Below are positions 14,198-60,261 of a DNA stretch of 64,000 nt, piece after piece. Source of the DNA: Falsiroseomonas oleicola (GTDB lineage Bacteria > Pseudomonadota > Alphaproteobacteria > Acetobacterales > Acetobacteraceae); contig NZ_JAERQM010000002.1 in the NCBI RefSeq assembly GCF_019029495.1, positions 310,001 to 374,000 of the forward strand. Reading direction: 5' to 3'. The position numbers and the translations under genes are program-made. The notes below the pieces were generated by a model. It had not been told where the DNA came from and did no database searches. It saw only the letters and a list, made by a program, of their open reading frames with translations. The first letter of the stretch is position 1. The number at the start of each line of letters is the position of its first letter.

Positions 14198-14227
14198 TGG
14201 CAACCAACGGCCGGATTGAAGGACCAG

Positions 14228-14301
14228 CGGTCCGCATGGCGGGCCGAGCGGCCGAACGGCCGCCGCGCCAAGTGGCGCGCAGCCAAGCCCCCGGAGGGGG
14301 T
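14228..14301 (+). repeat. Four-hairpin intergenic repeat element, copy A
   Basis: Four adjacent stem-loops are visible: 14228-14246 (8 bp, loop ATG), 14248-14263 (GCGGCC/GGCCGC, loop GAAC), 14264-14279 (CGCGCC/GGCGCG, loop AAGT) and 14288-14300 (CCCCC/GGGGG, loop GGA). The same layout occurs at 50222-50299. Differences between the copies fall in loops, in linkers, or as paired changes that keep the stems. Copy A lies in the 200-bp gap between the 126-aa gene and rnhB, in the direction of transcription. It may be a REP-like palindromic cluster or a structured RNA. Confidence 0.75.
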
Positions 14302-14397
14302 GCCGGCGCTTGAGGCAATGGCAAACATGCCGACGAGTCGCCGCAGGCGGCCGTCGCCATGATTTCGCCGGTTGGCAAAATGCCCTATGCCCGGCGC

Positions 14398-49367: not shown

Positions 49368-50195
49368 ATGACCCCAAACTCGCCCGATAGCCTCGCCGCG
49401 ACCGTGCCGGATGGCGCGCTGCTGGCCCTTCCCCCCGACAATTCGCTGCCTTCCGTGGCCCTGGCCCGGGCGCTGGTGCGGCGTGGCGCGAAGCGGCTGC
49501 GGCTGCTGGGCGTGCCGGTCTCCGGCTTTGCCACGGATCTGCTGATCGGCGCCGGCTGCGTCGCGGAGATCCAGACCAGCGCCGCCTCGCTCGGCGAGGC
49601 CGGTTTCGCGCCGCGCTTTTCCGCCGCGCTGAAGGCCGGCAGCATCACGCTGCGCGACGCCACCTGCCCGGCGATCCATTCCATGCTCCAGGCGGCCGAG
49701 AAGGGCATTCCCTTCATGGCGCTGCGCGGCATCATCGGCAGCGACATTTTGGCCAATCGCCCCGACTGGAAGGTGGTGCCGAACCCGATGGGCGACGGCG
49801 TCTCCGACCCCATCGTGCTGCTGCCCGCTCTGTCGCCCGATGTGGCGCTGATCCATGGCGTGATGGCGGATGAGGCCGGCAATATCTGGGTCGGCCGCCG
49901 GCGGGAACTGGCGACGGTCGCCCATGCCTCGAAGCGCGTGCTCGCCACCGTCGAGCGGATGGTGAAGGGCGACATGCTGGAGGATGAGAAGCTCGCCCCC
50001 GGCTGCATCAGCGGCACCTATATCGAGGCGGTGGCCGTGGCCGAGCGCGGCGCCTGGCCGGTGGCGCTGCTGGACGAATACGGCTTCGACGCGGCGCATG
50101 TCGCGGAATATGCCCGCATGGCCAAGACCGAAGCCGGCTTTGCCGAATATCTCGACCGCTACGTTCTGACCCAGCAGGCGCAGGCCGCGGAATGA
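49368..50195 (+). CDS. CoA-transferase subunit A (glutaconate CoA-transferase family)
   Basis: The 275-aa protein matches class I CoA-transferase alpha subunits: an N-terminal glycine-rich fold, VALIHGVMADEAGNIWVGRRRELAT and APGCISGTYIEAVAVAE resemble the GctA/IpdA segment (HAxxAD-xGN). It would move CoA between carboxylic acids, or act as a hydrolase in the IpdAB style. AGGA precedes the ATG at 49368. The partner subunit gene lies 124 bp downstream, separated by the four-hairpin element copy B. Confidence 0.82.
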   Translation: MTPNSPDSLAATVPDGALLALPPDNSLPSVALARALVRRGAKRLRLLGVPVSGFATDLLIGAGCVAEIQTSAASLGEAGFAPRFSAALKAGSITLRDATCPAIHSMLQAAEKGIPFMALRGIIGSDILANRPDWKVVPNPMGDGVSDPIVLLPALSPDVALIHGVMADEAGNIWVGRRRELATVAHASKRVLATVERMVKGDMLEDEKLAPGCISGTYIEAVAVAERGAWPVALLDEYGFDAAHVAEYARMAKTEAGFAEYLDRYVLTQQAQAAE

Positions 50196-50221: not shown

Positions 50222-50299
50222 CGGCCGGCATCCTTCGCCGGCCGAGCGGCCGAACGGCCGCCGCGCCCAGTGGCGCGTAGCCAAGCGGCCGGAGGCCGC
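50222..50299 (+). repeat. Four-hairpin intergenic repeat element, copy B
   Basis: Stem-loops are at 50222-50244 (8 bp, loop ATCCTTC), 50246-50261 (GCGGCC/GGCCGC, loop GAAC), 50262-50277 (CGCGCC/GGCGCG, loop CAGT) and 50285-50299 (GCGGCC/GGCCGC, loop GGA). The layout is identical to copy A at 14228-14301, with two base pairs flipped in the last stem and one in the first. It ends 20 bp before the CoA-transferase subunit B start and so is probably part of the subunit A-B mRNA. Confidence 0.8.
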
Positions 50300-50319
50300 G
50301 CCCGGCGACTGAGGGCCAC

Positions 50320-51075
50320 ATGGATATGACGATTAAATTGGAAGAACGCCTCGCCGCCACCCTGGCACGGCTGATCCTGGACCCGGCGGCGCCGCCGGCG
50401 CGCCATATCGCGGTGGGCGCGGCCAGCCCGATTCCGGCCGCGGCCTGCTGGCTGGTGAAGAAGCAGGGCCATCCCGTGCGGCTCTCCCTGCTGCACAAGC
50501 GCACCGGCAATCCCTTCAGCGAGGGATCGCGGGAGCTGTTCGACCTGACCGGGCAGGGGCGGATCGACCTGTTCTTCCTCGGCGGCGGGCAGATCGACGG
50601 CCAGGCGAACCTCAACCTGGTCGGCACCGGCGAATGGCCCGGCAAGTCCGTGCGCTTCCCCGGCAGCTTCGGCAGCGCCTACATGTATTTCATGACGCCG
50701 CGCACCATCCTGTTCCGCGAGGAACACTCCGCCCGCGTGCTGGTGCAGAAGGTGGACAATATCTCGGCGCCCGGCGTGTCGGAGCCCGGCGTCTTCCGCC
50801 GCGGCACGGCGCAGGCCCTGGTCACCGGCAAATGCGTTTTTGCCTTCCATCCGGACCGCGCGCGCTTCTCGCTGGCCAGCATCCATCCCGGCGAGACCGT
50901 CGACAGCATCCGCGCCGCGACCGGCTTCGACTTCGACGTGGCGGATGACGTGCCGCAGACCCCCGATCCGACCGAGGCCGAGCTCGCTTTGCTGCGCGGG
51001 CCGATCTGCGACGAGATGCTGGAAACCTATCCGGAGTTCTGTGCCCGCGTGTTCGACAGGAAACTTGCCGCATGA
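50320..51075 (+). CDS. CoA-transferase subunit B (glutaconate CoA-transferase family)
   Basis: The 251-aa beta subunit has the family segment LFFLGGGQIDGQANLNLV and FPGSFGSAYMYFMTPRTI. I do not see the catalytic Glu-Asn-Gly motif of true CoA-transferases; IpdB-type relatives also lack it and act in ring cleavage. The reaction is therefore uncertain. The start is ATG at 50320 or 50326, in a locally AT-rich stretch. The stop overlaps the next gene by ATGA. Confidence 0.8.
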   Translation: MDMTIKLEERLAATLARLILDPAAPPARHIAVGAASPIPAAACWLVKKQGHPVRLSLLHKRTGNPFSEGSRELFDLTGQGRIDLFFLGGGQIDGQANLNLVGTGEWPGKSVRFPGSFGSAYMYFMTPRTILFREEHSARVLVQKVDNISAPGVSEPGVFRRGTAQALVTGKCVFAFHPDRARFSLASIHPGETVDSIRAATGFDFDVADDVPQTPDPTEAELALLRGPICDEMLETYPEFCARVFDRKLAA

Positions 51076-53887: not shown

Positions 53888-53972
53888 TGGTGCGGGCGGT
53901 CGGAATCGAACCGACACTCCTCTCGGAACCGGATTTTGAGTCCGGCGCGTCTACCAGTTCCACCACGCCCGC
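53888..53972 (-). tRNA. tRNA-Leu (anticodon CAA)
   Basis: The minus strand gives an 85-nt class II tRNA with a 7-bp acceptor stem GCGGGCG/CGCCCGC, discriminator A and encoded CCA. The anticodon loop is CTCAAAA (anticodon CAA at 53936-53938), with a long variable arm (TTCCGAGAGGAGT) and T-loop TTCGATT. It reads UUG codons, rare in this GC-rich genome. Confidence 0.96.
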
Positions 53973-59842: not shown

Positions 59843-60007
59843 CGGTTCCTCCGTGCGATCAGACGACATGCCCGGCGACCCTTCCGGGCCATCAGGCGGC
59901 TGGCGTCGTCGCCGCCGGCGGAGACGAGCGGACAGCGGCGATCCTTCGCCACTGGCCTGTCGTTCCGTTGCGCCGGTGCACCCCGCCCGGCACGCGCGTG
60001 ACGTCTC

Positions 60008-60228
60008 TGCGCCGGCCGGTCTCCTGGCTCGCGGAGCACCGGGTGGCACACCACCCGGATCCTGTCCCCGCCTTCTCGGACCCGGATCAGGGTCCAATGG
60101 CGTCAGGGAGACAGGGTCTCCGCCTACAGTTGCGGGGGCAGCCGCGGACGTGGCCCGGCGGGTTGCCCCGGCTGGCCTTCGCGCGTTCCCGTTTCAGCCC
60201 TTGCGGGCCACCGTCGCATGGCGGCCTG
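60008..60228 (-). ncRNA. Cobalamin riboswitch (leader of btuB)
   Basis: On the btuB strand the conserved B12-box GAGCCAGGAGACCGGC is at about 60015-60030. The core GCTGCCCCCGCAACTGTAGG is near 60125-60145, and an upstream GGGAACGCG lies near 60195. The G-rich stem GGGTGGTGTGCCACCC is also visible. These are the hallmarks of a cobalamin riboswitch, which lowers receptor expression when B12 is plentiful. About 165 nt separate it from the start; a GCCCGG/CCGGGC hairpin at 59870-59889 in this stretch may belong to the expression platform. Exact ends are approximate. Confidence 0.93.
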
Positions 60229-60261
60229 TTACCATTGCGTCGCGGCGCCGCCAACCAGGCT

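Follow-up and report, generated by a model that had tools for sequence, protein, structure and literature searches.

The window, a 64,000-nt stretch of the Falsiroseomonas oleicola genome with a GC content of 70 %, carries two copies, A and B, of a hairpin-rich element (Table 1). Copy A sits between a short ORF that matches nothing in Pfam and a downstream gene for RNase HII, while copy B has a CoA-transferase gene on either side. The first-pass annotation of this DNA had described a pair of four-hairpin elements whose stems differ by compensatory changes, and direct reading bore out every stem difference from A to B: one flipped pair and a T-G to C-G change in H1, an identical H2, a changed loop in H3, and two flipped pairs plus a G-T to G-C change in H4 (the linkers differ too). 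The four stems stand; the count was short, as a fifth hairpin, H5, lies directly 3′ of H4 in both copies, with the general form GCC(C)-GGCGNNTGA-(G)GGC, and a probable pseudoknot was also overlooked. Likewise, both copies are real, but they are not merely a pair: many further copies occur in the same genome, and the repeat is class-wide. The repeat unit comprises a core of ~95 nt (H1–H5), to which a short tail and, on the 5′ side, a weakly conserved leader of ~22 nt are often added.

Table 1. Positions of the repeat copies and other features in the window
Feature	Position	Strand	Remarks
Copy A, approximate insertion	14198-14376	+	intergenic, ahead of RNase HII; borders uncertain
Copy A, whole core	14228-14316	+	base-by-base reading
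Copy A, H1	14228-14246	+	arms 14228-14235/14239-14246; 8 bp, variable, one T-G pair
Copy A, H2	14248-14263	+	arms 14248-14253/14258-14263; GCGGCC GAAC GGCCGC
Copy A, H3	14264-14279	+	arms 14264-14269/14274-14279; CGCGCC AAGT GGCGCG
Copy A, conserved linker nAGCCAA(G)	14280-14286	+	GCC 14282-14284, proposed pseudoknot 5′ strand
Copy A, H4	14287-14301	+	arms 14287-14292/14296-14301; GCCCCC GGA GGGGGT
Copy A, H5	14302-14316	+	GCC GGCGCTTGA GGC; GGC 14305-14307, proposed pseudoknot 3′ strand
Copy B, inferred inserted segment	50196-50325	+	130 bp; ATGA at 50192-50195 and 50326-50329
Copy B, whole core	50222-50316	+	base-by-base reading
Copy B, H1	50222-50244	+	arms 50222-50229/50237-50244
Copy B, H2	50246-50261	+	arms 50246-50251/50256-50261
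Copy B, H3	50262-50277	+	arms 50262-50267/50272-50277
Copy B, linker TAGCCAA(G)	50278-50284	+	GCC 50280-50282, proposed pseudoknot 5′ strand
Copy B, H4	50285-50299	+	arms 50285-50290/50294-50299
Copy B, H5	50300-50316	+	GCCC GGCGACTGA GGGC; GGC 50304-50306, proposed pseudoknot 3′ strand
tRNA	53891-53972	-	ordinary
Cobalamin riboswitch	59997-60230	-	ordinary

The folding energies of the single sequences are no more than moderately low (z −2.2 and −2.8). Energy folding of copy A returned the four hairpins H1–H4, while the minimum-energy fold of copy B kept H1 and H3 but let the arms of H2 and H4 pair with each other instead of forming separate hairpins; the evidence for the layout is therefore comparative.

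Covariation and a probable pseudoknot

Copies whose 3′ end was unrecognisable (L014, L028, L034, L040, L042 and L044) were omitted from the alignment; 25 of the copies formed alignment A1, on which we built covariance model R1. Pairing was found in 94.9 % of the 820 cells of A1, against 34–52 % when partners were slid by one to three columns, and 13/33 pairs change on both sides (87 such cells; 3–15 with slid partners). These values lie far above the slid controls, placing the hairpin layout beyond chance.

The linker between H3 and H4 is mostly AGCCAAG and the H5 loop mostly GGCGNNTGA, so that the linker GCC can face a GGC in the loop. In a regex collection from all fetched loci, restricted to copies with one of nine given linkers and the loop G[GC]C[GA], this combination was present in 257/267 distinct copies. 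A compensated swap to GGC/GCC was found in 6/267, carried by two copies from the F. oleicola genome (L023, L235), Roseomonas ponticola (L132), an Acetobacteraceae MAG (L150) and two IMG/VR contigs (L283, L301). The exceptions among the 267 are a clear GCC/GCC mismatch (L087) and a partly broken ACC/GGC (L019); two apparent GGC/GGC rows are regex artefacts and really GCC/GGC, the H3 arm ending in AGGC before the true AGCCAAG. Outside the collection, L078 represents a seventh swap (its H4 is too short for the regex) and L159, a degenerate match, has a change in the loop only.

In a broad alignment of 56 sequences (A6), drawn from copies of the regex type and containing neither L087 nor L019, the middle pair of the proposed pseudoknot reads C-G in 53 sequences and G-C in the other 3. 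A Fisher test of the linker/loop pairing, in which the two artefact rows were counted as normal and L019 was grouped with C-G (the tested position is intact and the first pair broken), returned 1e-11; as this value ignores relatedness, and some copies were fetched by a pattern that fixes the normal form, it shows only that mismatched states are rare. Covariation in A6 was further assessed by five measures against 500 shuffles, two of which were not clear of the shuffles (pairs changed on both sides, 85/500; further pair types, 10/500). Taken with the compensated swaps, the pairing suggests that the linker GCC and the H5-loop GGC probably form a pseudoknot. Judged from the pairing, it would be of the H-type together with the H5 stem, with H4 inside the first loop.

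Strand specificity of the fold

If both DNA strands were equally relevant, one would expect as many isolated G-T as A-C mispairs. The R1 alignment of 198 distinct copies has 69 G-T, 13 A-C and 67 other pairs among its single non-Watson–Crick pairs, counts that ignore relatedness. With distinct stems counted and the outermost H5 pair dropped, G-T exceeds A-C by 28 to 8 (P=0.001). Under symmetric scoring, the figures are 12 vs 2 for H3 and H4 and 14 vs 3 for H1, summing to 26 vs 5 (H1, H3 and H4, with H2 left out; P=2e-4), where stems are treated as independent, which is true only in part. The excess makes the listed strand the better candidate for the one that folds as a single strand.

A mechanism acting on lagging-strand ssDNA would be expected to leave a bias in replication strand. 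We assessed this by GC skew in 92 of the 113 R1 matches described below. Copies on contigs with clear skew (69/92) gave 46:23 (P=0.008); after removal of tandem neighbours, the contig skew gave 40:23 (63/86 copies, P=0.04) and the nearest 20-kb skew 42:39. In the same 92-copy sample, 18 of the 23 copies on contig C12 are on the plus strand, and 10 of the 14 on contig C1 beyond 1.0 Mb are on the minus strand.

Copy number and gene context

BLASTn with copy A found 44 places in its own genome, and R1 returned 113 matches at E values up to 1e-3 (150 candidates scored), the weakest of which may be partial; a looser regex scan gave 1348 hits, was far too loose and was not used. Tandem pairs at 104–105 bp and mosaic or chimeric copies are also present.

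Gene context was determined with a home-made gene caller (simple codon model) for 87 copies in 77 sources, the better-scoring part of the 113 matches with tandem copies counted singly. All but one (86/87) are intergenic. The copies comprise 34 convergent, 25 antisense-tandem, 24 sense-tandem plus the one that overlaps a predicted gene, and 3 divergent. The background, 232 other gene pairs of the same loci, comprises 171 tandem, 36 divergent and 25 convergent pairs. Convergent gaps are thus enriched (34/86 copies vs 25/232, Fisher P=3e-8) and divergent gaps avoided (3/86 vs 36/232, Fisher P=0.003). Between tandem gene pairs, sense and antisense copies are equally frequent (25 : 25), which speaks against a purely cis-acting role in mRNA. 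The repeat is therefore REP-like in the wide sense, being intergenic, high in copy number, located at gene 3′ ends and scarce in divergent gaps.

Core starts peak at 22 nt (8/58 copies) and 2 nt (9/58) behind the stop codon. Most of the 22-nt leaders have unrelated sequences; some leaders, judged by eye, resemble decayed forms of one ancestral leader. Conserved ends of the element were seen in one subfamily only (L205, L206, L210, L214, L221 and others), which is bounded by an inverted repeat, TACCARCGG...CCGTTGGTA.

Distribution across genomes, plasmids and phage

A covariance-model search of Acetobacteraceae, as proposed in the first-pass annotation, matched R1 in 34/200 genomes of the family (19/102 genera). 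The H2 and H3 pattern was present in at least 92 stretches of named genomes. Among the matches listed (80 titled), Roseomonas-like genera (Roseicella, Falsiroseomonas, Paracraurococcus, Roseococcus and others) are accompanied by one Elioraea, Acetobacteraceae MAGs and two uncultured Rhodospirillales. In a sample of the class, R1 matched 23/385 genomes and R2, a model of the 3′ module, 38/385 in 22 families, a few of these via weak matches only. In a phylum sample of unspecified class composition, 15/398 genomes matched, all from the same class. This class is Alphaproteobacteria, as indicated by the titled matches and by the taxonomy of the plasmids below.

Large plasmids of Azospirillum, Niveispirillum and Tistrella carry partial matches. 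The 3′ module pattern was also found in 64 stretches of IMG/VR contigs, which possibly include host DNA. One of these contigs, IMGVR_UViG_2708742415_000004 (47.9 kb; L263, L303 and L305), belongs to a tailed phage: the eight proteins scanned include portal, tape measure, tail terminator, DNA polymerase, helicase and primase. Its 21 pattern matches lie mostly in arrays with a spacing of 108–116 bp, between genes and in both orientations.

Empty sites and insertion borders

The site of copy B is empty in 7/7 relatives, in which the two CoA-transferase genes overlap at ATGA. For copy A, the counterparts in relatives show an unaligned gap of ~40 bp without the element (G095), 582 bp of other DNA (G195) or ~1.8 kb (G152). 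Five of six further loci (L022, L031, L216, L225 and L029) are element-free in one or more of three genomes of the same genus; at the sixth, L045, only one flank was matched in those genomes. The presence of the element at sites that are empty in relatives supports the view that it is mobile.

Duplications at the borders are short, and overlapping stop and start codons confound them. ATGA stands on both sides at copy B and at L225, the latter with a single GTGA in G195; the other sites share just TGA; relatives hold other short intergenic DNA at L022, which is therefore silent on duplication. As insertion at an overlapping stop/start would be tolerated only with duplication, such duplications may be over-represented.

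Comparison with known repeats and mobilising enzymes

Rfam, searched with the whole window at gathering scores, returned no family matching the element, and a search of seven loci at E values up to 1 gave nothing but two mir-84 hits below threshold, both on a hairpin that flanks the core (L002). We found no description of the repeat in open-access PubMed Central papers. These results agree with the first-pass annotation, whose author knew of no named family with this layout, and no link to REP/RAYT systems emerged either. By eye, no GTAG or CGTC tag was seen at unit ends in the alignments; CGTC appears where copies enter another repeat.

Two classes of mobilising enzyme were considered in 34 of the 56 carriers found. 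Y1_Tnp was absent from 32/34 and present in 2, with no match in the F. oleicola genome, and a control search was positive in 5/14 known genomes; mobilisation by RAYT is thus unsupported. RVT_1 was found in 11/34 carriers, including F. oleicola with one, and not in the other 23/34; with the domain in a minority of carriers, mobilisation by reverse transcriptase as a general rule is also unsupported.

Lichenicola cladoniae belongs to the family Acetobacteraceae. For its genome, PMC12306157 reports 1,369 REPs, and the text consulted does not show the layout of the five-hairpin repeat among them. According to PMC3733652, REPs measure 20–40 bp, CGTC repeats are missing in Acetobacteraceae and the spread of CGTC repeats without RAYT genes is an open question. 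Our repeat resembles the REP/BIME of that account (GTAG and CGTC super-families) in being short, palindromic, intergenic and high in copy number, located downstream of genes between convergent or unidirectional ORFs, and it shares with CGTC repeats the lack of a dedicated transposase (PMC3733652). Unlike REP/BIME, it is a composite unit of ~95–130 nt with five hairpins, a probable pseudoknot and conserved AGCCAAG and GGCGNNTGAGGG. With REPIN/RAYT systems (PMC2817692, PMC3116915), it has in common non-autonomous hairpin units that are multiplied across the genome; the missing Y1_Tnp in nearly all carriers searched sets it apart.

Rfam structured RNAs likewise have a covarying fold selected on one strand, whereas this element behaves as a mobile repeat and is neutral in orientation to host genes. 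MITEs are small, non-coding elements with empty sites and an apparent short duplication. The repeat is reminiscent of them in being small and non-coding and in its empty sites, and perhaps in the duplication, but terminal inverted repeats were seen in one subfamily only, and it has covarying internal stems and a probable pseudoknot.

A mobile repeat proposed to be recognised as a folded single strand

With moderate confidence, we interpret copies A and B as members of a non-autonomous, REP/MITE-like mobile repeat of Alphaproteobacteria, whose folded single strand would be recognised by a separate enzyme. Encoded elsewhere, this enzyme would act on the folded strand as ssDNA or transcript and let the element spread, with recognition potentially occurring via the conserved AGCCAAG and GGCGNNTGAGGG, brought together by the pseudoknot. 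Such recognition, whether of ssDNA or of RNA transcribed from the element itself, would account for a fold that is strand-specific yet neutral to gene orientation. Copies would persist mainly near stop codons since insertion there spares genes and promoters.

The first-pass annotation had proposed selection on structure, acting either on an RNA or on a palindromic mobile unit. Selection on structure is supported across many copies by the covarying stems, the compensated linker/H5-loop pair and the G-T excess, and stem changes in the further copies are mostly compensated. The mobile unit agrees with the empty orthologous sites, but the choice between the two falls away, as the element is apparently mobile and strand-specific in its fold. 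More tentatively, we offer as a possible but doubtful extension that this is a class-wide mobile element whose replicating or recognised form is the pseudoknotted single strand, that its enzyme is unrelated to RAYT and not reliant on a resident reverse transcriptase, and that the element is able to colonise tailed-phage genomes in arrays.

A cis-acting mRNA element, in which pseudoknotted 3′-end hairpins block exonucleases, terminate transcription or separate the expression of operon genes and mobility is secondary, appears unlikely. It would fit the position of copies close behind stop codons, that of copy B between two CoA-transferase genes, and a one-strand fold that tolerates G-T, and roles of this kind are hypothesised for REPs (PMC3733652). 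However, tandem pairs display no sense bias, the examined orthologous sites lack the element and no T-tract is evident behind H5 (flanks viewed by eye).

We consider it quite improbable that the copies are dispersed genes for a trans-acting RNA, e.g. a guide-like molecule with a variable 5′ leader and a conserved scaffold for a nuclease or recombinase. Conserved unpaired segments and the probable pseudoknot throughout the class, a strand-specific fold regardless of host genes, and leaders that are mostly unrelated yet often equal in length all point that way, whereas array units of ~100–116 bp leave little room for promoters, and some leaders look by eye like decay of one ancestral sequence.

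In REP/REPIN systems, the hairpins are recognised as one strand. An ordinary family of this type, moved by a RAYT (Y1 HUH) transposase, would share the habitat and high copy number but is very unlikely given the distribution of Y1_Tnp, a unit far above the REP length given in PMC3733652 and the absence, by eye, of a GTAG tag. Chance hairpins, although common at this GC content and in keeping with the modest z-scores, are refuted by covariation, copy number and class-wide conservation.

The preferred reading, a mobile repeat recognised as a folded single strand, concerns non-coding DNA that has about a hundred matches in a single genome, corresponds to no Rfam family, and occurs both in phage DNA and in 22 families, for a few of which the matches are weak. 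The repeat can serve as a clear test case for the spread of REP-like repeats that lack RAYT genes, and models R1 and R2 can be used to annotate otherwise blank intergenic DNA.

Junctions with other repeats

Several copies adjoin other repetitive DNA. A lone palindrome of ~36 bp, with the same ends as the TACCARCGG subfamily, follows the copies in L208 and L215. In chimeric copies (L014, L028, L040, L042, L224 and L228), the 3′ end enters a different repeat, CGTCACGCC...GGCGTGCC..GGCACG or similar, which resembles the CGTC-tagged REPs reported missing in Acetobacteraceae.

REPs are reported targets of IS elements (PMC1525189). At L096:4483, L142:7153 and L158:7783, H4 is cut at the same spot (AGCCAAGCAA|CTGTCTTTTGT...) by an identical sequence, probably an IS targeting the repeat. 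Each stretch ends ~90 bp into the inserted DNA, and two of the three are in Roseicella frigidaeris.
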